From: an uncultured Chthonomonas sp.
GTDB taxonomy: Bacteria; Armatimonadota; Chthonomonadetes; Chthonomonadales; CAJBBX01
Length of the DNA stretch: 43,660 nt
Direction of reading: 5' to 3'
Assembly (NCBI GenBank): GCA_903885605.1
Contig: CAISJD010000012.1
Coordinates: forward strand, 1-43,660
In this document: one piece after another, positions 25,909 to 38,850 of the stretch
How the letters are laid out: every line of letters begins with the position of its first letter
Numbering within the stretch: the stretch's first letter is position 1
Made by a program: the position numbers and the translations under genes
The notes under the pieces: model-generated
Told to the model about the DNA's origin: nothing
The model's input: the letters and a program-made list of their open reading frames with translations, nothing else
The model's database searches: none

Positions 25909-27087
25909 CTACTTCGGCGGCTTTGGGCGGGATGTGGCCTCCTTCAGGAGCGGCTCTATGTCGAAACCCAGCGGCGCGCCGTTGCTGATCTTGGCCCGGG
26001 CCGAGACGATGGCCTCCTCCAGCCCCGGCGGCGTCTCGTTCTTCCACCAGTTCATCCGCTCGCTGTAGCACCAGACGTACTTGTCCGTGGTGTAGAGCGC
26101 CCAGTAGGTGTTGTGCTCGAACCAGCGGGCACGCTCGTCCGGGGTCATGCGGTAGCTCGTGTAGCTCTCGGGGTCGGGCTGCCGCAGCGCGAAGTTCTGG
26201 TCGACGTAGAGGGCCATGCCCACCTGCACCTGCCGGTCGTACCTGGTCCGCAGCTCCGGCGGGATGAGCAGGCGCGCGCGGCTCCGGATGGCGTGGTAGG
26301 CCCGGAAGTACTGCTCCCGCGTGGTGGTGTAGTAGGCCATCTCGTTGCCGTCGACGAACCGCGCGCCGGGGCTCGCGCCCTCCAGCATTCCCACGAAGAA
26401 GTCGGGCATGAGGCCCCAGGAGCGCTCCTGCAGCCGCTTGCCGCGCTCGGGCTCGGGCACGTCGGCCAGGTCGCCCATGAGGCTGACGTGGAAGAAGGTG
26501 AGGATCACCGCCGCGGGGAGCGACTTCTCGAAGGCCCGCATCAGCTGCGCGCCGCGCTTGCGGACCTGGGCGCGGTACTCCGCGAAGCTCCGCGACGAGG
26601 CCCGGGGCTGCTTAGCGTAGTTCCAGAGGTCGAAGTCGTAGGGCTCGGGGTCGAAGCAGATGCCGGCGAGCGGGCCCGACCGAGCCGCCCGCACCAGGAG
26701 CCGCGCGTTGCCCTCGACGGCCTTCCACTGGGCGTCGTCGAACCAGTCCCACCCGGCCGGAGGCGAGCCCCAGATCAGCACGAAGTTCTCGTTGAAGCGC
26801 TCGAAGCGGAGCGACTTCAGGATGCGCTGATCCTCCGCGAAGGCGGCCGGGGCCAGCGGCTTGGTCACGAAGGCGTTGTAGCCGCCGTTCAGCCGGTAGA
26901 TGACGCCCTCGAACGGGCGCTGCTCCATGGCCTCTTGGCCGGCCTGCAGCTGGGCGGGGTTCGGCACGTCCCAGCCGTACTCGATGAGCTTCTTGCCCCG
27001 CAGGTCCGCCAGGTCGGCGGCGCCGGCTCCGGCGGCGGCCAGGAGGGCCACCAGGACGGGCAGGGCGCCATTCACGAACGATCTCAT
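25909..27087 (-). CDS. Secreted protein of unknown function, TIM-barrel-like
   Basis: A 392-residue protein with a signal peptide (RSFVNGALPVLVALLAAAGAGA, cleavage near residue 24). The mature chain starts DLADLRGKKLIEYGWDVPNPAQL. Alternating strands and helices, with acidic residues at strand ends (GICFDPEPYDFDLW, FVDGNEMAYY), suggest a TIM-barrel of the glycoside-hydrolase type, but I cannot assign a family. Aromatic-rich segments (WALYTTDKYVWCYSERMNWW) near the C-terminus could line a sugar site. Its 3' end abuts the orphan Ig fragment, so its own downstream sequence was probably replaced. Proteins of this style occur beside sulfatases and glycoside hydrolases in planctomycetes and Armatimonadota (recollection, not checked). 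Confidence 0.78.
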   Translation of the reverse strand: MRSFVNGALPVLVALLAAAGAGAADLADLRGKKLIEYGWDVPNPAQLQAGQEAMEQRPFEGVIYRLNGGYNAFVTKPLAPAAFAEDQRILKSLRFERFNENFVLIWGSPPAGWDWFDDAQWKAVEGNARLLVRAARSGPLAGICFDPEPYDFDLWNYAKQPRASSRSFAEYRAQVRKRGAQLMRAFEKSLPAAVILTFFHVSLMGDLADVPEPERGKRLQERSWGLMPDFFVGMLEGASPGARFVDGNEMAYYTTTREQYFRAYHAIRSRARLLIPPELRTRYDRQVQVGMALYVDQNFALRQPDPESYTSYRMTPDERARWFEHNTYWALYTTDKYVWCYSERMNWWKNETPPGLEEAIVSARAKISNGAPLGFDIEPLLKEATSRPKPPK

Positions 27088-27266: not shown

Positions 27267-28670
27267 CTACTCGCGGGCCAACTCAGGGTACCGGTGAATG
27301 ACGGCCTCGCGGTCGCGGGGCGGAAGCTCGGATAGCCGTACCGGCCTGTCCTGCGGGCGGGTCTGCTTCTGGTTGATCGCGCCCATGAGGCTCCAGCGGC
27401 GCGTGGCGTCCTGTGGCTCACGGGCCTGCAGGTCGTAGCGCGTGTAGTCGATGACGTGGGCCGGGCCACCGGCCTGCCAGTCGCGGAGCAGGGCCAGCCG
27501 GAACGCTTTGTTCATGAACCAGCGAATCTCCATGTTCGCGTCCGATCCGCCGATCCCGCTGCCGCGCTGCCGGAACCGGTAGTCGATGCCGTCGTTGTTC
27601 CTGAACTGGCCGCGCCATGCCAGCCCGAACTCGCCCTGCGTGACGCATCGCGCTCCGGACCACCGGCGGCGGATCTCCGACAGCCAGTGGGTCAGCGCGT
27701 CGAGGCGGCCGAAGAGCGGGACGAGCGACGCCTCCCAGCAGTTCGTAACCCACCCGAAGCGGTTCAGGTCGAAGCCGTCGTCGAAGTGCGCGGCCGTGGT
27801 CGCCAGCATCTGCCTGACCCCGACCTCCGGGCCGTAGGCGCCCACCGTCTCGATGGGGCCGACGCCCATGCGGCTGTTGAAGCCGTCGCGGAACCCCTCC
27901 CGCCGGGCCGCCAGGAAGTCGCACGTCCAGCCGTCCAGGTTCACGCAGTCGATAAAGTCGCCCCTGCCCTGGGCCGGTTTGCAGAAGTGCTCTGTCGAGG
28001 GGTAGTAGGGGTAGCAGATCGAGCCGTCGCCGTCCTGGTTGTCGATGGCGTACTGGCTCCAGATGTTGCCCTGGCAGACATGGACGCGCTCCTCGACGGC
28101 CAGGTGGCGCTGGTTGGCCGCGGCCAGGAAGCCTGCCACCACGCTGGACGGGCGGAACCCGCCGCCCACGATCTCCGACACCCTCTCCAGCGCCTCGTGC
28201 AGGTCGCGGTTCACCCGCTCGCGGGGGCCGTAGGCGTTGGCGAAGAAGCCGCCGGGAATGAAGGTGACGTCGTCGCCGTGGAGCGCGTGGAAGCCCGCCA
28301 CCATGTCGCGGATGGCCACGTAGTCGGGCCTCGGGTCGCTCAGGGCGCGCCAGCTGAAGGCCCAGGTCATTCGGCCGCCGGGCCAGCCCCGCTCGAAAGC
28401 GTCGCGCAGGGCCCGGACGTTCCTGGGTGTGTGTGCCGAGGCCTCGTCCACGCCTTCAGTCCGGTCGCGGGTAACCTCGATTTGGTTCACGCGGATCACC
28501 GAGTTGAAGGTCAGGTAGCGGTGGCCCAGGAAGCCGGCGGCAGTGTCTCCCATGGCGGTCCTTTCGCATGCGAGCGGCCCGGCTCCCGATGCCGCCGCGG
28601 CGGCCCCAAGCAGCAGGGCGCGGCGGGTAAGGGGAGGCAGGGGTCGTGAAGAGGCTGCGTTCATAGCCAT
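27267..28670 (-). CDS. Exported protein, DUF3863/DUF3864-like
   Basis: A 467-residue protein starting at ATG 28670 (ATG 28664 also possible; the frame opens at 28724). The leader has an RR pair before a hydrophobic stretch (LTRRALLLGAAAAASG) and a Cys in PLACERT, so it may be Tat-exported, perhaps a lipoprotein. The mature part begins GHRYLTFNSVIRVNQIEVTR, which I associate with DUF3863-type proteins from glycan loci. Later blocks include TFIPGGFFANAYGPRE, NQDGDGSICYPYYPSTEHF, and GFDLNRFGWVTNCWEA. It looks enzymatic with several conserved Trp, Asp and Glu, but no reaction is known to me. Confidence 0.75.
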   Translation of the reverse strand: MAMNAASSRPLPPLTRRALLLGAAAAASGAGPLACERTAMGDTAAGFLGHRYLTFNSVIRVNQIEVTRDRTEGVDEASAHTPRNVRALRDAFERGWPGGRMTWAFSWRALSDPRPDYVAIRDMVAGFHALHGDDVTFIPGGFFANAYGPRERVNRDLHEALERVSEIVGGGFRPSSVVAGFLAAANQRHLAVEERVHVCQGNIWSQYAIDNQDGDGSICYPYYPSTEHFCKPAQGRGDFIDCVNLDGWTCDFLAARREGFRDGFNSRMGVGPIETVGAYGPEVGVRQMLATTAAHFDDGFDLNRFGWVTNCWEASLVPLFGRLDALTHWLSEIRRRWSGARCVTQGEFGLAWRGQFRNNDGIDYRFRQRGSGIGGSDANMEIRWFMNKAFRLALLRDWQAGGPAHVIDYTRYDLQAREPQDATRRWSLMGAINQKQTRPQDRPVRLSELPPRDREAVIHRYPELARE

Positions 28671-28768
28671 ACCATGGTACCGGATCGGGTCGACGTCGAC
28701 CGACCGACCGCGTACCCAGCGCACAGCGAGGCCGAGGCGGTCGGCAACTCAATAGGTGTGGCGGCGCC

Positions 28769-28861: not shown

Positions 28862-28902
28862 CCATCCATTGACCGCCCGCCGCCGCATAACCTACACTGT
28901 TG
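28862..28902 (+). promoter_or_regulatory. Promoter-bearing 41-bp direct repeat, copy 1 (mntA-hepT promoter)
   Basis: This 41-bp block recurs at 29619-29659 with a single mismatch (40 of 41). It contains a -35 box TTGACC at 28869-28874, an 18-base spacer and a -10 box TACACT at 28893-28898. Transcription would start near 28905, about 54 bases before the mntA start. Confidence 0.8.
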
Positions 28903-28907
28903 GTGTA
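28893..28907 (+). promoter_or_regulatory. Inverted repeat over the mntA -10 box
   Basis: TACAC and GTGTA flank a 5-base centre, so the arm overlaps the -10 box. The right arm is absent from the second promoter copy at 29650, so the site is specific to the toxin-antitoxin promoter. It could be an autoregulatory operator; the arms are short. Confidence 0.35.
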
Positions 28908-28958
28908 TCGGAGGGGGGCCAAGACGGAGGCGGCGAACCCATCGCCGGAGGATGCCTG

Positions 28959-29255
28959 ATGGACATGGACCGTGATGCAGTCATCGCTACGCTTGCGGCG
29001 CGCTTACCGTACCTGTCCGCGGCCTATGGTGTGCGCGACCTCGCGCTGTTCGGCTCGGTTGCGCGGGGCGCCGCCCGGCCCGAGAGCGACGTAGACATCC
29101 TGGTCGGCTTCGACGGACCTGCCACGTCGCGACGCTACTTCGGCGTCCAGTTTGACCTCGAAGACCACCTGGGCCGTCCCGTCGACCTGGTCACGAGCAA
29201 GGCGCTTCGGCCCGAGTTCAGGCACGGCGTCGAACGAGAGATGATCCGTGTCTGA
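28959..29255 (+). CDS. mntA: MNT-domain nucleotidyltransferase antitoxin (MntA-type)
   Basis: A 98-residue minimal nucleotidyltransferase. The polymerase-beta signature GSX10DXD is complete: Gly32-Ser33 in LALFGSVARG and Asp44/Asp46 in ESDVDILVG. A third acidic position comes later in GRPVDLVTSKAL. MntA proteins adenylylate a tyrosine in the RX4HXY site of HepT and so block it. GGAGGA at 28947-28952 lies 6 bases before ATG 28959, which fixes the start although the frame opens at 28869. It overlaps hepT by 8 bases. Antitoxin-first order is standard for HEPN/MNT pairs. Confidence 0.9.
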   Translation: MDMDRDAVIATLAARLPYLSAAYGVRDLALFGSVARGAARPESDVDILVGFDGPATSRRYFGVQFDLEDHLGRPVDLVTSKALRPEFRHGVEREMIRV

Positions 29256-29610
29256 CCAGTCTGAGCGGGATTGGCGCCTCTACCTGAAGGACATGGTCCG
29301 GTTTGGCGACAAGGTCATGCAATACGCGCAGGGAATTGATCAGCGTTCCTTTGCCGTGAATGATATCGTGTATGATGCCATCCTGCGGAACCTTGAGCTG
29401 ATCGGTGAGGCCGCATCGCACGTGCCTCCGGCGGCCCGCGAACTACATCCAGCGGTTGCCTGGCGTCAGATCGTCGCCACGCGCAACAGGCTGATACATG
29501 GCTACCTCGGCCTGGACGATGAGTTGCTGTGGAGCATCGTGCAGGATGACATCCCGCCCATGCTCACGCAGTTGCGGGCCGCACTCGAAGAGACCGATCC
29601 GATCTCGTAG
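29248..29610 (+). CDS. hepT: HEPN-domain RNase toxin (HepT, DUF86)
   Basis: A 120-residue all-helical HEPN protein. The ribonuclease motif RX4HXY is intact: Arg79, His84, Tyr86 in TRNRLIHGY; Tyr86 is the residue AMPylated by MntA in studied pairs. Other family marks are NDIVYDAILRNLELIGEAASHV and LLWSIVQDDIPPML. HepT cleaves RNA, reported for tRNA and mRNA, when unmodified. It starts with GTG at 29248 inside the last codons of mntA, so the two are translationally coupled. The second 41-bp repeat begins 9 bases after its stop. Confidence 0.92.
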   Translation: MSDQSERDWRLYLKDMVRFGDKVMQYAQGIDQRSFAVNDIVYDAILRNLELIGEAASHVPPAARELHPAVAWRQIVATRNRLIHGYLGLDDELLWSIVQDDIPPMLTQLRAALEETDPIS

Positions 29611-29659: not shown

Positions 29660-29690
29660 CCGGGCCGCGATGGCCGCAAGGGGGATACCT

Positions 29691-30647
29691 ATGGGTTCCG
29701 AGACGATGCACGGTGGCGATGGGCGCATGGGCGAGGCCAGCCGCCGCGAGTTCCTGGCCGGGGCCGTGGCCGCGGGCGTGACGCTGGCTTGCGGCGAGGC
29801 AGCCGTCGGGCAGGCCGCCCAGGTTGCGCCGCTGCCCCACGTGACCATCGCCGGGGTGACCATCCCGCGCATGATCGTCGGATGCAACCCCATCGGCGGC
29901 TGGTCGCACATGTCCCGCAACATGACGCTGGCCATGACCGACTACTTCACGCAGGAGCGCACCGTCAGCTTCCTCTCCGGCTGCGAGAAGCAGGGGCTCG
30001 ACGTCTGGATCGGCTACTGGGACGACAAGCCGCGCAAGGCCCTCAAGCAGCTCTGGGCGCAGGGCTCGAAGATACGCCCCTACTTCCTCGGCCAGCTCGA
30101 GGAGGGCGGGAAGATCTCCAAGGACCTCCTGGAGTACAAGCCCATCTGGTACGTCCACCACGGCAACGTCACGGACACGCTCTTCCGCGCGGGCAAGCAG
30201 GAGCAGGTGCACGACTTTGTGAAGCGCGTCCATGACACGCTGGGCATCCCCGCGGGCATCTCGGCGCACAACCCCGACTGCATCAAGTACGCCGAGGACC
30301 ATGGCTGGGAGGCCGACCTCTACCAGTGCTGCCTCTACTACGTCACCCGCCCGGCCGAGGAGATACGCGCCAAGCTCGGCTCCGCGCCGCTGGGCGAGCC
30401 TTTCCTGGACGGCGACCGCGACCGGATGCTCGACGTGATCCGCCAGGTGAAGAAGCCCTGCCTCGCCTTCAAGATTCTCGGCGCCGGGCGGCTCTGCGAC
30501 TCGGATTACTCGGTGGAGGAGGCGTTCCAGTACGCCCTCTCGCGCATCAAGAAGAGCGACGCCATCATCGTCGGCATGTGGCCGAAGTACAAGGACGAGG
30601 TGGGTCAGAACATCGCCCTGCTCCGCAAGTACGGGCGCACGGCGTGA
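29691..30647 (+). CDS. Tat-exported aldo/keto-reductase-like protein
   Basis: A 318-residue protein. The N-terminus carries a twin-arginine signal, ASRREFLAGAVAAGVTLACG, near residues 16-35. The mature chain has VTIAGVTIPRMIVGCNPIGGW, like the opening strand of aldo/keto-reductase-fold proteins, GIPAGISAHNPDCIKYAEDHGW, and a late FKILGAGRLCDSD, which again fits that barrel. The classical catalytic tetrad is not obvious, so the reaction is open. ATG 29691 is chosen over 29670 because AGGGGG lies 6 bases upstream. Its TGA stop overlaps the GTG start of the next cytochrome gene by 4 bases, so the two products are made together and may exchange electrons outside the cytoplasm (inference). Confidence 0.85.
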   Translation: MGSETMHGGDGRMGEASRREFLAGAVAAGVTLACGEAAVGQAAQVAPLPHVTIAGVTIPRMIVGCNPIGGWSHMSRNMTLAMTDYFTQERTVSFLSGCEKQGLDVWIGYWDDKPRKALKQLWAQGSKIRPYFLGQLEEGGKISKDLLEYKPIWYVHHGNVTDTLFRAGKQEQVHDFVKRVHDTLGIPAGISAHNPDCIKYAEDHGWEADLYQCCLYYVTRPAEEIRAKLGSAPLGEPFLDGDRDRMLDVIRQVKKPCLAFKILGAGRLCDSDYSVEEAFQYALSRIKKSDAIIVGMWPKYKDEVGQNIALLRKYGRTA

Positions 30648-31321
30648 GGCGCGGGACGCTCCCGGCCCTGGGCTTCGGCTTGTCGGCGCTGCTGGTGGCG
30701 GCGACCCTCGCCGCCCCGCCCGCCCCGCCCGCGCAGCTGCTCTACCCGCTGGCCGGGACCGTGCGCAAGCCCGGGGCCGTCCGCGTGATGCTGGCCACTC
30801 CCAGGGGCGCGCCCATGCCCGCTGCCGTCTGGGACGGCAAGCCGCTGCGCCTGAGCCGCATGGCCTTCGATCCCGGGTGGACCGCGCCCGCGCCGCTCCA
30901 GCGGACCTCCGACCTGCTGGGCGACCGGACCACAATGGAGCGTTGGCTGTCCGCACCCGCCGCGACGGTGGGCAAGCATACGCTGAAGGCCGGCGGCAGG
31001 AGCGTCGTGCTGACCGTGAACGCCGCCGGCGCCGCACGGGGCCTCGCCCAGGCCGCGGCGCATGGGAAGCCCGCCTCGGCCGCCTGCTCCGGGTGCCATG
31101 CCGTCGCGAACGGTAGCCTGGGCGACGCCGCCACGCCCGGCGCCTGTGCCGCCTGCCACAATGACGCGGCGGTGCAGACCATCCACAAGCACGTCACCGA
31201 GCCGCTTCGTCGTTGCGCCATGTGCCATGACCCACACGAGGCCGTCCGGCCCAAGCTGCTCTGCGCCCCGAAGGAGAAGCTCTGCAGCCGTTGTCACGCC
31301 CTGGGTCACTCCAAGGGCTGA
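30644..31321 (+). CDS. Secreted tetrahaem cytochrome c (doubled CXXCH type)
   Basis: A 225-residue exported protein starting at a GTG that overlaps the previous stop (GTGA). A signal peptide (LPALGFGLSALLVAATLAAP) covers about residues 1-25. An N-terminal domain of about 110 residues, rich in beta and without haem sites, precedes four CXXCH motifs: CSGCH 148-152, CAACH 168-172, CAMCH 191-195 and CSRCH 214-218. The last two form a doubled-CXXCH pair with HDPHEA between. The haem cofactors would pass electrons in the periplasm or at the surface. Upstream in the same frame the sequence is a shadow of the previous gene. Coupling with the Tat protein suggests a redox pair. Confidence 0.88.
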   Translation: MRRGTLPALGFGLSALLVAATLAAPPAPPAQLLYPLAGTVRKPGAVRVMLATPRGAPMPAAVWDGKPLRLSRMAFDPGWTAPAPLQRTSDLLGDRTTMERWLSAPAATVGKHTLKAGGRSVVLTVNAAGAARGLAQAAAHGKPASAACSGCHAVANGSLGDAATPGACAACHNDAAVQTIHKHVTEPLRRCAMCHDPHEAVRPKLLCAPKEKLCSRCHALGHSKG

Positions 31322-31434
31322 ACGCCGGCATTCGTCCCATCGGTCACAAGCCGCGGCCCAACACTGCGCTGCCCGTCGCGGCGTATACTGAACTCACCGC
31401 CGCCTGCCGACACGGGCGGCCAATGGAGCCTCCC

Positions 31435-33627
31435 ATGTGCATGAGTACCCGCCGGCAGAGGCCGCGCCTGACCGGCCGCATCCTTGGAGCGTTTGCCATG
31501 ACCCTCGCCACGACCCTCGCCGTCTCGCCGGCTTCGGCCGGTCCGCCCGCTGACTGGCTCGTCCGCCCGCCTGCCGAGGTCACCCGCGCCGACCGCTCGG
31601 CCGACGGCAAGGAGATCGTCCTCCAGAACGGCCTCATCCGCCGCGTCTGGCGCCTGGCCCCCAACGCCGCCACCGTCGCGCTGGACAGCCTGATGACCGG
31701 CGCCTCGCTGCTCCGTACCGCCTCGCCCGAGGGCTGGGTGGTGATCAACGGGGTCAGGGTGGCCGTCGGCGGCCTGGTGGGACAGCCGGAGCGGGGCTAC
31801 ATGCTGCCCGAGTGGATCGCCGACATGAAGGCCGACCCGGAGGCGTTCCGGTTCGTCGATGCCACCAACCGGCCCACGGCCGAGCGCTTCGGCTGGAAGC
31901 GCACCGGCGCCCTCCCCGACGTGCCCTGGCCCCCGCCGGGCGTGGCGGTCCACCTGCGCTTCGCGGCGCCGGCGAGCCTGCCGCAGGGCGTCGAGGTCGT
32001 CTCGCACACCGAGATGTACGACGGGATGCCCGTCACCGCCCGCTGGTTCACGGTGCATAACGGCTCCGGCGCGTCCATCACGCTCAACGCCTATTCGGTG
32101 GAGCAGCTGGCGGCGGTCGAGGGCGAGTCCGCCGTGGGCGACCAGGGGCGCTGGACCTACCCGCCCATCTACGTCGCCGGCGACTTCATGTGCGGCGGCG
32201 ACACCGCCATGAACGCCAATAAGATGGCGCGCTGGGTCCTCGACCCGGCCTACACCTCGCAGGTCAACTACACCCTCACCACGCCCTGCGTGCTGGAGTG
32301 CGGGCCTGCGCTGGGTCCCGACGTCACCATCCCGCCCGGCGGCTCCTACGACACGCACCGCGCCTACGAGCTGGCGCTGGACAGCGACGAGCGCGAGCGC
32401 AAGGGCCTCGCCGTCCGACGCATGTACCGCGCGCTGGCGCCCTGGACCGCCGACAGCCCGCTCATGCTCCACCTCACCTCGGTGGACCCCAACGTGGTGC
32501 GGACGGCCATCGACCAGGCCGCCGAAGTGGGCTTCGAGATGGTCATCTTCAGCTTCGGCAGCGGCCTGAACATGGAGGACGCCTCCGAGGCCAACATCAA
32601 GCGCTTCAAGGAGTATGCCGACTACGCACACTCCAAGGGCCTCCGCATCGGCGGCTACTCGCTGCTTGCGAGCCGAAGCATCGGCCCCGACGTGGACGTC
32701 GTGAACCCGAAGACCGGCAAGACCGACGGCGCCGTCTTCGGCTACTCGCCCTGCCTTCAGAGCTCCTGGGGCCGCCAGTACTTCGAGCACGTCAGGGCCT
32801 TCCTGGCCGGCACGGGCTTCGACCTGCTGGAGCATGACGGCAGCTACCCCGGCGACGTCTGCGCCTCCACCAAGCACATCGGGCATAAGGGGCTGGACGA
32901 CTCGGTGCAGTCGCAGTACGCCCTCATCCAGGAGTTCTACCACTGGTGCCGGAGCCGCGGCATCTACCTGAACGTGCCGGACTGGTACCTGCTGCAGGGA
33001 TCTAACAAGACGGGCATGGGCTACCGCGAGGTCAACTGGTCTCTTCCCCGCGCACGCCAGATCGTGCTGGGACGCCACAACCTCTACGACGGCACCTGGG
33101 AGAAGACCCCCACCATGGGCTGGATGTTCGTGCCGCTGGTGCAGTACCAGGGCGGCGGCGACGCGGCGACCATCGAGCCGCTGAAGGAGCATCTGGACCA
33201 CTACGAGGCGCACCTGGCCAATAACCTCGGCTTCGGCGCCCAGGCCTGCTACCGCGGCCCGCGGCTCTTCGACGCGCCGCAGACCAAGGCCCTGGTGCGC
33301 AAGTGGGTCGCCTGGTTCAAGGAGCATCGCGCCATCCTGGAGTCGGATGTCATCCATCTGCGCCGAGCCGACGGCCGCGACTGGGACGGCATCCTCCACG
33401 TGAACCCGGCTCTCCCCACCAAGGGGCTGGCGATGCTCTACAACCCCATGACGCAGGCCATCACCCGCGAGGTCGCCCTGCCGCTCCGCTACACGGGGCT
33501 GGCCGGCAAGGCGCGGGTGCGGGTCGGCACGGGGCGGGCCGCCACGGTGAAGGCCGATGCGGCCGGCGCCGTCCGAGTGAAGGTGACGATCCCGGCGCAG
33601 AAGGCCGTCTGGGTGACGCTGGAGTAG
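31435..33627 (+). CDS. Secreted GH36-like (alpha-galactosidase-type) protein
   Basis: A 730-residue exported protein with a signal peptide (GRILGAFAMTLATTLAVSPASA). GGAG at 31425 lies before ATG 31435 and ATG 31441; the frame opens at 31291. An N-terminal beta-supersandwich (EIVLQNGLIRRVWRL, MPVTARWFTVHNGSG) is followed by a TIM barrel: MVIFSFGSGLNMED, LRIGGYSLLASRSIG, then GFDLLEHDGSYPGD where Asp468 is the best nucleophile candidate, and IYLNVPDWYLLQGSN. A C-terminal beta-sandwich ends at AVWVTLE. The layout fits clan GH-D, but the motifs are diverged from true alpha-galactosidases, so the substrate is unsure. A co-directional ABC-2 permease pair starts 30 bases later. Confidence 0.8.
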   Translation: MCMSTRRQRPRLTGRILGAFAMTLATTLAVSPASAGPPADWLVRPPAEVTRADRSADGKEIVLQNGLIRRVWRLAPNAATVALDSLMTGASLLRTASPEGWVVINGVRVAVGGLVGQPERGYMLPEWIADMKADPEAFRFVDATNRPTAERFGWKRTGALPDVPWPPPGVAVHLRFAAPASLPQGVEVVSHTEMYDGMPVTARWFTVHNGSGASITLNAYSVEQLAAVEGESAVGDQGRWTYPPIYVAGDFMCGGDTAMNANKMARWVLDPAYTSQVNYTLTTPCVLECGPALGPDVTIPPGGSYDTHRAYELALDSDERERKGLAVRRMYRALAPWTADSPLMLHLTSVDPNVVRTAIDQAAEVGFEMVIFSFGSGLNMEDASEANIKRFKEYADYAHSKGLRIGGYSLLASRSIGPDVDVVNPKTGKTDGAVFGYSPCLQSSWGRQYFEHVRAFLAGTGFDLLEHDGSYPGDVCASTKHIGHKGLDDSVQSQYALIQEFYHWCRSRGIYLNVPDWYLLQGSNKTGMGYREVNWSLPRARQIVLGRHNLYDGTWEKTPTMGWMFVPLVQYQGGGDAATIEPLKEHLDHYEAHLANNLGFGAQACYRGPRLFDAPQTKALVRKWVAWFKEHRAILESDVIHLRRADGRDWDGILHVNPALPTKGLAMLYNPMTQAITREVALPLRYTGLAGKARVRVGTGRAATVKADAAGAVRVKVTIPAQKAVWVTLE

Positions 33628-34819: not shown

Positions 34820-35944
34820 ATGAGCGTCCGCGATGTCGCCCTCAAGGAGTTTCGCCAGGTCCGCCGCGACAGGCGCATCCTGCCGTTCATGTTCGCCGTA
34901 CCGGTGATCCAGCTGCTGCTCTTCGGCTTCGCGGTGTCCACCGACATCAAGCGGCTTGAGTTGGTGGTATGCGATATGGACCGCTCAAGCGAGAGCCGCC
35001 GGCTCATCCGCATGGTGCACGGCTCGGAGTACTTCCGGTACCGTGGCGACGTGCCGGACCTGCGCGGCGCCGGCCGTGCGCTCGACACCGGCGCGGCGAA
35101 GATCGCCCTGGTCATCCCGCCGGGCTACCAGCGCGACATCGTCCGCGGCCGCACCGCCGTGGTGCAGGCGCTGCTCGACGGATCGGACGCCAACGCCGGC
35201 TCGGTCGCGTCGAGTTACCTCAGCAGGCTCGTGCAGACGCGTTCGGCCGCGCTTCTCGAGGATCGCCTCGCGCGGCTCGGCGCCTTCCGACCCACTGCCG
35301 GCGGCCTGGAGCCGCGCCTCCGGCTCTGGTACAACCCCGGCCTGGAGAGCGCGCTCTTCATGATCCCCGGCGTCATGGCCATCGTCATGGGACTGGTCGC
35401 CACCTCGCTCTCTTCCATGTGCATCGTGCGGGAGCGCGAGATCGGCACCATGGAACAGCTCATCGTCACGCCGCTCAAGGCGTGGGAGCTCATGCTGGGC
35501 AAGATGCTTCCGTACCTGGCGGTGGGCTACGTGAACCTGACGGCCATCCTGGTGGTCAACGCACTGGTCTTCCACGTGCCGCTCCGGGGAAGCCTCGGGC
35601 TACTGGCGCTACTCACTGGCGTCTTCCTTGTGGCGCAGGTCGGTCTGGGGCTCCTCATCAGCGTCACCAGCCGCACACAGCAGCAGGCTCAGTACCTGAC
35701 GGCCTTCTTCTTCATGCCCAACATGCTCCTCTCGGGCTTCATGTTTCCCATCGAGAACATGCCCGAGGCCCTCCAGGTGGTCACCTACGCCCTGCCGGCG
35801 CGCTACTTCATCGTCATCGCCCGCGCGGTCTTCCTGCGAGGCAGCGACGCCTGGACCCTCCTCGACCAGATCGTGCCGCTCTGCGCCCTGTCGCTACTGC
35901 TCCTCGTGGTCGCCGCGCTGCAATTCCACAAGCGCTCCGACTGA
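34820..35944 (+). CDS. ABC-2 type transporter permease, partner subunit
   Basis: A 374-residue paralogue of the preceding permease, starting 1 base after its stop. It has the same plan: first span FMFAVPVIQLLLFGFAVSTDI, an extracytoplasmic loop with IALVIPPGYQRDIVRG and LLDGSDANAGS, the coupling motif REREIGTMEQLIVTPLKAWELMLGK, and a C-terminal set ending ARYFIVIARAVFLRGSD. Closest in style to YhhJ/YbhR-type half-transporters. Both subunits need an ATPase, normally encoded just upstream with an HlyD protein, but the upstream gene here is a glycoside hydrolase-like protein. Confidence 0.92.
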   Translation: MSVRDVALKEFRQVRRDRRILPFMFAVPVIQLLLFGFAVSTDIKRLELVVCDMDRSSESRRLIRMVHGSEYFRYRGDVPDLRGAGRALDTGAAKIALVIPPGYQRDIVRGRTAVVQALLDGSDANAGSVASSYLSRLVQTRSAALLEDRLARLGAFRPTAGGLEPRLRLWYNPGLESALFMIPGVMAIVMGLVATSLSSMCIVREREIGTMEQLIVTPLKAWELMLGKMLPYLAVGYVNLTAILVVNALVFHVPLRGSLGLLALLTGVFLVAQVGLGLLISVTSRTQQQAQYLTAFFFMPNMLLSGFMFPIENMPEALQVVTYALPARYFIVIARAVFLRGSDAWTLLDQIVPLCALSLLLLVVAALQFHKRSD

Positions 35945-36027
35945 GGACGCCACCGACCGGCCTCGCCATCCCACAACAAAGGACACTCCGCCGCTGCCGC
36001 CTAACTTACGGCCCAGGAGAACCGCCC

Positions 36028-38850
36028 ATGCCTGCATTCAGCCTAGCCGCCGCCCTCATGCTCGCCGCCGCGCCTCCCGCACTGCCCGCCGGCGCCGTTC
36101 GCATCGAGAATGCCCATATGCGCTGGACCATCGGGCGCGACGGCCGTAACCTGGGCATCTGGGCCAAGCGCCCGGGCAAGGAGATCCTGCGGCGCGAGCC
36201 GGCCTCCTGGTTCGCCGTGGCCCGCAAGGGCGACCGGGCCGTCACGCCGGAACGGGTGGCGATGGAGAACGGCCGCCTGACGCTGGACTTCCCCGGCGGC
36301 GCGCAGGCCGTCCTCGCCGTCGTCGCGCGGCCCGACGCCGTCGTCTTCAGCGTGGAGCGCTGGCGGGGCGAGGCCGACGAGTTCACCTTCGCCGGCGCCC
36401 CGCTGACGCTGGACCCGGAGAAAGATGAGCCCTTCGCCGCCTGCACGCTGGCGCTGAACGTGCGTACCAACGTGCTGCCGCTGCCCGGCCCGGCCAACGA
36501 GCTCGGCGCGCACGCCTACTCCCGGTTCGGCATCCAGGGCGCCTCGGCCGCTCTGGTGGCGGGTCCCACGAACGGCCTGCGGGCCCAGTTCAAGCGCACG
36601 GTCACCGCCGCGCCGGAGCTGCCGCACTCGTCGGTCGGCGGTCCCTGGGCCATGGACGTCCGCGCCACGCGGGCCTCCTACCTCTTCAACCACAACGGGC
36701 TGGGAGTGGCGGATGTGCCGAAGTGGGTAGCGACCGCCCGGGCCGTGGGCGCCACGCAGATCGACTTCCACGGCGGTGAGTCGTTCCGGTTTGGTGACTT
36801 CGCACCCAGCCCGAAGCTCTACCCGAACGGCCGAGCCGACTTGAAGAAGGTGATCGACGGCCTCCACGCCCAGGGCCTCCAGGCAGGGCTGCACACCTAC
36901 GCCTTCTTCATCGACAAGAAGTCGCCCTACGTCACGCCTCTGCCCGACAAGCGGCTGGCTTCCGCGCGAAGCCTGACGCTGGCCGAGCCGCTTACGGCCG
37001 ATGCCGACACGGTGACCGTCGCCGAGAGCACGCAGGGGCTGAATGCCACCACGGGCTTCTTCGTGCCCAACAGCGCCACGCTGCGCATCGGGGATGAGCT
37101 GATCACCTTCACCGCCGCCGGCCAGTCGCCGCCCTGGCGCTTCACCGGCTGCACCCGCGGCGCACTGGGGACGAAGGCCGCTGCCCACGCCGCCGGCGAC
37201 AAGGCCGACCACCTGAAGGAGCTGTTCGGCCTCTTCCTGCCCGATCCCGACAGCACCCTCTTCACCGAGGTCGCCGACAACACCGCGCGCATGTACAACG
37301 AGTGCGGCTTCGACATGATCTACCTGGACGCGCTGGACGGCTCCTTCATCCTGGCCGGCGGCGAGTGGGCGTGGCACTACGGCTCCAAGTTCGTCTTCGA
37401 GCTGTGCCGGCGGCTCCAGCGGCCGGCCATCATGGAGATGAGCACCTTCCACCACCACCTCTGGTGCGTCCGATCGCGCATGGGGGCGTGGGACTGCCCC
37501 CGCACCGGCGTCAAGGAGTTTGTGGACATGCACCGCGTGGTGAACCGCGCCAACACCCGCATGTTCCTGCCCTCGCAGCTGGGCTGGTGGTCCATCTTCG
37601 GCTGGGACGGCGTGCAGCCCGACCGCACCATGCCGGACGACCTGGAGTACCTGCTCTGCAAGGCCGTGGCCGACGACGCCGGAGTGGCCATGATGGGCTT
37701 CAGCCCCGAAGTGCTGGCCGAGGCCGAGGGGCTCCAGCGCCACGCCGAGCTGATCCGGCGCTACGAGGAGTTGCGGCGGACAGGAGCCGCGCCGCCCGCC
37801 CTGCGCCGCAGGCTGGGCGAGCCCCGCGCCGAGTTCACGCTGATCGACGGCAAGCCCGGCAAGCGCGCCTTCGCGCCGGTCTCCTACGCCAAGCGCACGG
37901 TGGACGGACCCAGGGGCGCGTGGCAGGCGGCCAACCCCTTCGCCGCGCAACCGGCGCGCATCCGCATTGAGGCGTTGCTGCAGGTTGCTCGGAACCGTGA
38001 CCCGAACCGCCTGTTCTCGGCCGCCACACTGGGCAGCCTCACCACGCCGAAGTGCGCCCCCGGCGTGACGCTCACGGTCGGCGTCGGTCCCGGACCCGCC
38101 GCCGAGGGTTCGGTGCGGCTGACGGCGAAGAACACAACGGCCAAGAGCTCCGGCGCCTGGTGCATGGTGGAGCGCCTCTTCGACCCGGCCATCGACCTCA
38201 CGCACCGTGCCCTGGGCGTCTGGGTCTGCGGCGACGGGAAGGGCGCCGTGCTCAACCTGCAGCTGCGTAGCCCGGAGAACGTCACTCCCGGCGCGGCCGA
38301 GCGCTACGTGAAGCTCGACTTCGCCGGCTGGCGATGGGTGGAGCTCGTCGAGCCCGAGAGCGAGCGCCTCAGCACCCTTACCTGGCCCTACGCCGCCGAC
38401 CGCGCTACGTGGGAGACGAACCGCACCGCAGCCTTCGGAGCCGCATATAAGCTCTACCACCCGTGGGTGGTCTACAGCAGCATCGGCGCGCTGGGTGTCT
38501 GGCTGAACAACCTGCCCGCCAACGGCGAGACTGAGGCGATCATCGGCGCCGTGGAGGCGCTGCCGCTGGTGGATGGAGTGGTGGCCAACCCCTCGGTCAC
38601 GGTGGCCGGGCGCACGCTCACCTTCCCGGTGGAGCTTCGCAGCGGGCAGTGGCTCGAGTACGCTCCCGGCGCCCCGGCGGTCGTCTACAGCCCGTCCGGC
38701 AAGCGGATCGCGGAGTGCAGCCCCACCGGCGAGCCGCCGACGCTGCAGACCGGCGCCAACGAGGTCTCTTTCAGCTGCCGCGAGAACCCCTCCACCCCGC
38801 CGCGCTGCCGGGTGACGCTCCAGACGCGTGGCAAGGAGCTCAAGTTCTGA
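36028..38850 (+). CDS. Large secreted TIM-barrel-like hydrolase with an inserted domain
   Basis: A 940-residue exported protein. AGGAGA at 36015 precedes ATG 36028; the signal peptide is MPAFSLAAALMLAAAPPALPAG. An N-terminal beta-sandwich (about 22-200) leads into a barrel: GATQIDFHGGESF, GLQAGLHTYAFFIDK, then CGFDMIYLDALDGS with Asp434 and PAIMEMSTFHHH with Glu470, which are the likely active-site acids. Between the second and third of these elements, about residues 315-395, sits an insert with VTVAES, IGDELITFTAAG, TGCTRGALGTKAAAHAAGD, a motif I know from phage-tail and surface proteins. The C-terminal 300 residues look like carbohydrate-binding sandwiches. The family is not recognised; glycosidase activity is inferred. 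It ends 6 bases before the convergent sulfatase. Confidence 0.8.
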   Translation: MPAFSLAAALMLAAAPPALPAGAVRIENAHMRWTIGRDGRNLGIWAKRPGKEILRREPASWFAVARKGDRAVTPERVAMENGRLTLDFPGGAQAVLAVVARPDAVVFSVERWRGEADEFTFAGAPLTLDPEKDEPFAACTLALNVRTNVLPLPGPANELGAHAYSRFGIQGASAALVAGPTNGLRAQFKRTVTAAPELPHSSVGGPWAMDVRATRASYLFNHNGLGVADVPKWVATARAVGATQIDFHGGESFRFGDFAPSPKLYPNGRADLKKVIDGLHAQGLQAGLHTYAFFIDKKSPYVTPLPDKRLASARSLTLAEPLTADADTVTVAESTQGLNATTGFFVPNSATLRIGDELITFTAAGQSPPWRFTGCTRGALGTKAAAHAAGDKADHLKELFGLFLPDPDSTLFTEVADNTARMYNECGFDMIYLDALDGSFILAGGEWAWHYGSKFVFELCRRLQRPAIMEMSTFHHHLWCVRSRMGAWDCPRTGVKEFVDMHRVVNRANTRMFLPSQLGWWSIFGWDGVQPDRTMPDDLEYLLCKAVADDAGVAMMGFSPEVLAEAEGLQRHAELIRRYEELRRTGAAPPALRRRLGEPRAEFTLIDGKPGKRAFAPVSYAKRTVDGPRGAWQAANPFAAQPARIRIEALLQVARNRDPNRLFSAATLGSLTTPKCAPGVTLTVGVGPGPAAEGSVRLTAKNTTAKSSGAWCMVERLFDPAIDLTHRALGVWVCGDGKGAVLNLQLRSPENVTPGAAERYVKLDFAGWRWVELVEPESERLSTLTWPYAADRATWETNRTAAFGAAYKLYHPWVVYSSIGALGVWLNNLPANGETEAIIGAVEALPLVDGVVANPSVTVAGRTLTFPVELRSGQWLEYAPGAPAVVYSPSGKRIAECSPTGEPPTLQTGANEVSFSCRENPSTPPRCRVTLQTRGKELKF

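Follow-up and report, generated by a model that had tools for sequence, protein, structure and literature searches.

A Tat-exported protein of aldo/keto-reductase fold recurrently paired with a tetrahaem cytochrome c: a possible exported redox module of Armatimonadota and other phyla

The window analyzed here is a 43,660-nucleotide stretch of DNA from an uncultured Chthonomonas sp. (contig C12 of genome G000, Armatimonadota). In it two genes on the forward strand overlap by four bases (Table 1): the first encodes a barrel protein, the second a c-type cytochrome. A sequence-only reading of this DNA had reported the two genes, their overlap and a cytochrome with four haems. Both frames are confirmed, and the cytochrome gene holds four CxxCH motifs, the predicted haem sites. 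Alternative in-frame starts for the barrel exist upstream (ATG at 29670) and later in the frame (ATG at 29727). The gene overlap suggests that the two proteins are made in step, as had been proposed.

Table 1. Features of the barrel–cytochrome gene pair (positions in the window; row counts refer to the alignment of 48 barrels).
Feature	Position	Strand	Details
Tat-exported AKR-fold barrel protein (predicted)	29691..30647	+	318 aa; ATG 29691, stop TGA 30645-30647
Barrel Tat signal region and linker	29691..29822	+	SRREFLAG, twin Arg at 29742-29747
Asn66, candidate pocket residue	29886..29888	+	47/48 rows
His157, aligns with AKR catalytic His	30159..30161	+	46/48 rows
Asp162	30174..30176	+	invariant, 48/48 rows
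His193, strand-5 GxSxH motif	30267..30269	+	invariant, 48/48 rows
Lys261, end of strand 7	30471..30473	+	invariant, 48/48 rows
Overlap of barrel and cytochrome genes	30644..30647	+	4 bases, GTGA
Tetrahaem c-type cytochrome (predicted)	30644..31321	+	225 aa; GTG start, stop TGA 31319-31321; C-terminal Paired_CXXCH region
His140, proposed distal haem ligand	31061..31063	+	invariant extra His
Haem motif 1, CSGCH	31085..31099	+	residue 148
Haem motif 2, CAACH	31145..31159	+	residue 168
His181, His183, His198, other proposed distal ligands	31184, 31190, 31235	+	
Haem motif 3, CAMCH	31214..31228	+	residue 191
Haem motif 4, CSRCH	31283..31297	+	residue 214

Signals on both proteins bear out the earlier prediction that both are exported. 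In the barrel, SRREFLAG spans residues 17–24 (Arg18-Arg19) and a hydrophobic stretch comes next: with a twin-arginine signal and a hydrophobic h-region the protein is, by its predicted features, a Tat substrate. The Pfam TAT model scores it below cut-off (E 0.083); the twin Arg is kept in all nine rows of an alignment of the family. TatC is encoded in the window genome and in 11 of 12 genomes tested, the single genome without a match being 72% complete. The cytochrome begins with a hydrophobic stretch and has no Cys ahead of its first haem motif, and is therefore a cytochrome without a lipobox. A cytochrome c assembly protein is present in 12/12 genomes tested.

Comparison of 19 cytochromes, from the window and from the loci described below (L092 left out), found eight haem Cys, four haem His and four extra His (140, 181, 183 and 198) invariant in every sequence. 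Because four CxxCH motifs are matched by four extra invariant His, the partner cytochromes probably carry four bis-His haems. The N-terminal ∼110 residues are much less conserved than the haem region. The window protein matches PF09699 above cut-off and is weakly similar to DmsE-type decahaem proteins. Cytochromes of the c7/c3 and Paired_CXXCH families (PF14522, PF14537, PF09699) likewise have four CxxCH motifs and four conserved His within about 80 residues; to these the window cytochrome adds the N-terminal domain of about 110 residues and a dedicated barrel partner. Elsewhere in the genome (L204, G000:C201:35182-39461) a nine-CxxCH protein just below the cut-off of the DmsE decahaem model lies near an eight-CxxCH protein.

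The barrel itself escapes family models. Apart from the weak Tat match, Pfam and NCBIfam return no family for the window protein; PF00248, the aldo/keto reductase (AKR) model, fails to match it and matches, weakly, one of 48 members of its family (E 0.051). A sequence search of the PDB gave no convincing match among solved structures, and a search of a plasmid collection gave none. A structural model of the mature protein built from an alignment of 48 sequences is nonetheless confident (pLDDT 96.5, pTM 0.93), and replaces a poor earlier model from nine sequences (pLDDT 73.7). In a DALI-like structural comparison all 50 matches listed were AKRs (Z 15.9–19.7, 213–229 residues aligned, rmsd 2.9–3.7), the best match listed being plant L-galactose dehydrogenase (7svq, 7smi; Z 19.7, rmsd 3.0 over 226 residues). 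Foldseek returned TIM barrels of several kinds – AKRs at TM about 0.5–0.58, DAHP/KDO8P synthases, GcpE and IMPDH – and by itself failed to single out AKRs. Alignment by hhalign against eight AKRs of the same genome gave E 5.4e-4 at a probability of 30%, in register from strand 4 onward; a profile comparison with the nine-row barrel alignment produced one 21-residue match, out of register. The model thus supports an AKR-type (beta/alpha)8 fold, the AKR-like barrel that the sequence-only reading had predicted.

Aldo/keto reductases are soluble nicotinamide enzymes with a catalytic Asp-Tyr-Lys-His tetrad. With L-galactose dehydrogenase and other AKRs (PF00248) the window barrel has in common the (beta/alpha)8 barrel with its N-terminal beta-hairpin, the position of the catalytic His, and the strand-5 GxS and strand-8 VG motifs. 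It differs from them in being exported by Tat (as predicted), in its tetrahaem neighbor, in being missed by the family models and, above all, in its active site: the tetrad Asp, Tyr and Lys are gone, whereas a strand-7 Lys and a strand-5 SxH are invariant or nearly so in its family. In an alignment that leaves out AKR rows L214 and L243, Asp, Tyr, Lys and His are all present in six canonical AKRs from this genome, and nine barrel-family members keep His only; the alignment is weak in its N-terminal part, and the three losses were read strand by strand. Across 48 barrels G158, D162, G189, H193, K261, D290 and G295 are invariant, and N66 (47 rows), H157 (46), D209 (46) and S72 (45) nearly so. 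These 48 rows comprise L081–L115 (35 of 39 loci), the window and 12 other relatives labeled cytoplasmic, one of which (L003) has a Tat motif; the near-copies L079 and L080 and the partial L116 and L117 are omitted. Secondary structure would place the conserved residues at the mouth of the barrel, in a candidate pocket. Since the model ranks with AKRs while the family keeps the tetrad His alone and has other residues invariant instead, we consider the barrel an AKR by fold but not a classical AKR by mechanism; with one of four tetrad residues kept, the view of it as an ordinary aldo/keto reductase has to be given up.

The same candidate pocket residues are found in non-exported relatives, so the cytochrome cannot be required for the basic chemistry. 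Residues separating paired from unpaired barrels amount to weak, clade-bound differences in the 48 rows. The relative L003 (G000:C2:28843-29718) is a distant barrel paralogue that carries a Tat motif of its own; the 17 kb examined there contain no multihaem gene.

The barrel alignment, used as query against public genomes, found 39 loci. A tetrahaem gene lies downstream on the same strand in 19 and is absent from 18; two (L116, L117) could not be judged, so that 19 of 37 judgeable loci are paired (L092 is cut by a contig end, with two haem motifs visible). Paired loci come from Armatimonadota (11), Planctomycetota (4), Verrucomicrobia (2), Omnitrophota (1) and a genome labeled Nealsonbacteria (1, label doubtful). 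Those without the cytochrome come from Acidobacteriota (all seven judgeable loci of that phylum), Planctomycetota (6), the Armatimonadota group (4, counting L090, which is G010 and has no phylum name) and Sumerlaeota (1). Groups follow record titles, some of which differ from GTDB (e.g., Fimbriimonadaceae for L084). The two genes are spaced by −28 to +27 bases in 16 of the 19 loci and by 289–616 in three. Pairing can be explained by 6 changes on a tree of 48 barrels, against an average of 14.9 for shuffled labels: the partner has therefore been gained or lost several times within a barrel family that can also function without the cytochrome. The sequence-only reading had coupled the barrel to the cytochrome. 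As a recurrent pair this stands, although pairing is frequent rather than obligatory. One outcome named beforehand as refuting it, a barrel lacking a cofactor pocket in a family that occurs without cytochromes, is observed in its second half (18 of 37 judgeable loci); for the first half, the conserved residues form a candidate pocket that might hold a cofactor.

Among 291 Armatimonadota genomes the barrel profile finds 16 places (E ≤ 1e-120), 12 of them with the cytochrome adjoining, and the cytochrome profile finds 12 places (E ≤ 1.1e-21), every one beside one of the 16 barrels. These 12 best cytochrome matches are the 12 paired places; the next match falls to 7e-14. Both cut-offs (1e-120 and about 1e-21) were chosen after gaps in the match lists were seen, and nine of the barrel places and seven of the cytochrome places are rows of the models themselves; when genomes whose rows built the models are excluded, 5/7 barrels are paired and 5/5 cytochromes lie beside a barrel. 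The four unpaired barrels (G008, G010, G219, G065) have no cytochrome copy elsewhere in their genomes at E ≤ 1e-10. A search of 61 genomes matched the barrel in 28 and the cytochrome in 19, with strong matches adjoining in G000, G001, G002, G009, G044, G057, G025 and G039. The pair, which also occurs outside the phylum, is clearly not peculiar to the window genome. We did not find it in print in the literature searched, which is no proof of absence.

Relative to a congener (L079) the barrel is 98% identical with a dN/dS of 0.05 and the cytochrome about 80% identical with a dN/dS of 0.28, values that place both genes under purifying selection. This selection, together with the recurrence of the arrangement, marks the pair as more than chance. 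By way of background, among 192 genes of the compared loci at a distance of at least three positions, one has four or more CxxCH motifs.

The region around the pair encodes an acetylesterase, GH2, GH32/43-like and arabinofuranosidase-like proteins and a sulfatase, and by these predicted products is a glycan-utilization region. No PF06439 gene was seen beside the pair, nor is PF06439 among the 25 families listed for 77 neighbors of window-type barrels (73 scanned, of 90 called, plus four from the window; gene calling missed the barrel itself in the window, L084, L088 and L100). These neighbors are mixed, Gfo/Idh proteins being the most frequent (5/77) and xylose-isomerase-like proteins occurring twice, so context alone gives no substrate for the barrel. 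Several further features of the window were noted. Just upstream of the pair (28869-29610) are nucleotidyltransferase and HepT-like genes resembling an MNT/HepT toxin–antitoxin pair; on the minus strand lie a DUF3863/DUF3864 protein with a Tat-like start (27267-28724) and a neighboring gene without a Pfam match (25909-27087). Large open frames without a Pfam match follow downstream (31291-33627 and 34969-38850), the first of which has a counterpart at the same place in both congeners.

A second pair of similar design is encoded in the same genome, where searches for doubled CxxCH motifs and for PF00248 met at one spot on contig C37 (G000:C37:20267-21896; L198:1180-2812). Like the window pair it consists of a Tat-exported AKR-type protein whose gene overlaps that of a four-CxxCH cytochrome (181 aa, 8-base overlap). 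Its AKR, which carries a Tat signal, differs in belonging to PF00248 proper (E 6.6e-11) and in having the tetrad Asp, though not Tyr, Lys or His, and its cytochrome also belongs to another subfamily. AKRs of the same genome without a tetrahaem neighbor (L193–L196) keep all four tetrad residues. The second-type AKR occurs at 14 places in 11 of the 291 genomes. By manual reading of the neighborhoods, 10 of these places have a tetrahaem gene immediately next to the AKR gene and one has it one gene away; at one a contig edge leaves it unseen, and two lack it. Further Tat-AKRs with an adjoining tetrahaem gene are present in L235, L237 and L243. In two records the second-type tetrahaem protein is fused to PF06439, the 3-keto-disaccharide hydrolase domain (L216, 2309-3253, E 2e-31; L241, 445-1413, E 3e-37); both fusions sit downstream of the AKR gene, which in L241 is truncated by the start of the contig and was recognized by eye. 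A PF06439 gene also adjoins the second-type pair in L214, and the window genome has 17 PF06439 matches. Two related arrangements deserve mention: one 12-kb stretch (G039:C81:9572-21289) holds both AKR-fold kinds and both tetrahaem genes on a single contig, with a symporter-like gene (named by eye) between the second AKR and its cytochrome, and in G000:C87:33941-35853 an AKR gene (L196) has a PF06439 match on its own strand some hundreds of bases downstream.

We propose, at a probability of about 0.5, that the window pair is a redox module of exported proteins: an enzyme of AKR fold would pass electrons to or from the tetrahaem protein dedicated to it, probably as part of sugar (3-keto-glycoside-like) metabolism. 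The barrel would fold in the cytoplasm, perhaps around a cofactor, and leave through Tat; the cytochrome would leave unfolded and have its four c-type haems attached outside. The pocket at the mouth of the barrel would bind a substrate bearing hydroxyl groups, most probably a sugar or glycoside from glycans that the organism degrades, and the tetrahaem protein would take electrons from the barrel. A cofactor would have to bridge the two-electron oxidation of the substrate and the one-electron haems. We infer that the barrel is an oxidoreductase; the electron exchange, its direction and the sugar chemistry are likewise proposals. In favor of the module are the recurrent pairing, the invariant haem residues, the presence of TatC and cytochrome c assembly, the second pair and the carbohydrate genes. 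Against it are the largely absent NAD(P)-type tetrad, the relatives without a cytochrome, the non-exported relatives that share the pocket residues, and the lack of a PF06439 gene beside the window pair and among the families listed for neighbors of such barrels. Sugar oxidation finds indirect support, by analogy, in the glycan-utilization setting of the window and in the two fusions of an analogous Tat-AKR/tetrahaem family to a 3-keto-disaccharide hydrolase. It is on its own conserved pairing and on the PF06439 fusion of the second AKR pair that the proposal of a sugar oxidoreductase is founded.

The lactose 3-dehydrogenase LacABC includes a cytochrome subunit, and its LacA is a flavoprotein with a fold other than that of AKRs; the window pair, by comparison, combines an AKR fold with a c7/c3-like tetrahaem carrier. 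The Caulobacter LacABC study proposes sugar oxidation outside the cytoplasm and subsequent 3-keto-glycoside hydrolysis, with a DUF1080 protein (PMC9007349), an association of exported oxidation with PF06439 proteins to which we liken the present pair. The known kind is then the cytochrome-linked exported oxidoreductase, of which the window pair would be a variant if its function is as proposed.

Other explanations need to be set against this module. The barrel could be a non-redox isomerase, epimerase, aldolase or lyase working through its invariant His, Asp and Lys, while the cytochrome serves a different exported dehydrogenase, one active in the step just before or after. Loss of the tetrad Asp, Tyr and Lys fits such an enzyme, as do the invariant H193, K261, D162 and G158 and near-invariant N66, H157 and D209 of exported and non-exported relatives alike, and the Gfo/Idh (5/77) and xylose-isomerase-like (2/77) neighbors. 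We nevertheless regard it as rather unlikely, given that the cytochrome lies directly downstream of the barrel and beside no single other enzyme family, and that in 291 genomes its subfamily occurs only beside barrels. Electrons might also flow the other way, from a low-potential tetrahaem protein into a barrel that reduces an external carbonyl or other compound. Bis-His haems are usual in low-potential carriers, and four are likely here; the cytochrome's weak resemblance to DmsE-type decahaem proteins and the nine-CxxCH DmsE-like protein in the genome point in the same direction. The fusion of the parallel AKR-type pair to a 3-keto-disaccharide hydrolase fits oxidation better, and reverse flow appears improbable.

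A third alternative makes the barrel an NAD(P)-dependent aldo/keto reductase holding its nucleotide tightly through Tat, with an incidental cytochrome. It has a precedent in glucose-fructose oxidoreductase, which carries a tightly held nucleotide through Tat; the AKR fold, with L-galactose dehydrogenase as best structural match listed (Z 19.7), and the retained catalytic His agree with it. We think it very improbable, for the family rows compared lack Asp, Tyr and Lys of the tetrad and PF00248 matches 1/48 members, weakly (E 0.051). Least credible is an accidental neighborhood of two exported proteins co-transcribed by chance: 18 of 37 judgeable relatives lack a cytochrome neighbor and the tree shows 6 changes between paired and unpaired, but the same order and strand recur in several phyla, no member of the cytochrome subfamily turned up away from a barrel in 291 genomes and 1/192 more distant genes is multihaem.

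Returning to the exported redox module, the two pairs considered together permit a broader and decidedly tentative suggestion, which we hold to be possible rather than probable: that AKR-fold proteins without the nicotinamide tetrad became cytochrome-linked exported sugar dehydrogenases at least twice, each with a dedicated tetrahaem acceptor, forming a new class of periplasmic oxidoreductase that starts 3-keto-glycoside-type glycan breakdown in Armatimonadota, Planctomycetota and Verrucomicrobiota. A tetrad-poor AKR-fold barrel, exported folded and equipped with its own tetrahaem carrier, would depart from the soluble nicotinamide AKRs. If the proposal is true, extracytoplasmic sugar chemistry would be tied to electron transfer in a new way, a barrel family without a Pfam entry would gain a function, and the little-known 3-keto-glycoside route by which glycans are degraded in uncultured phyla would acquire a testable entry point.
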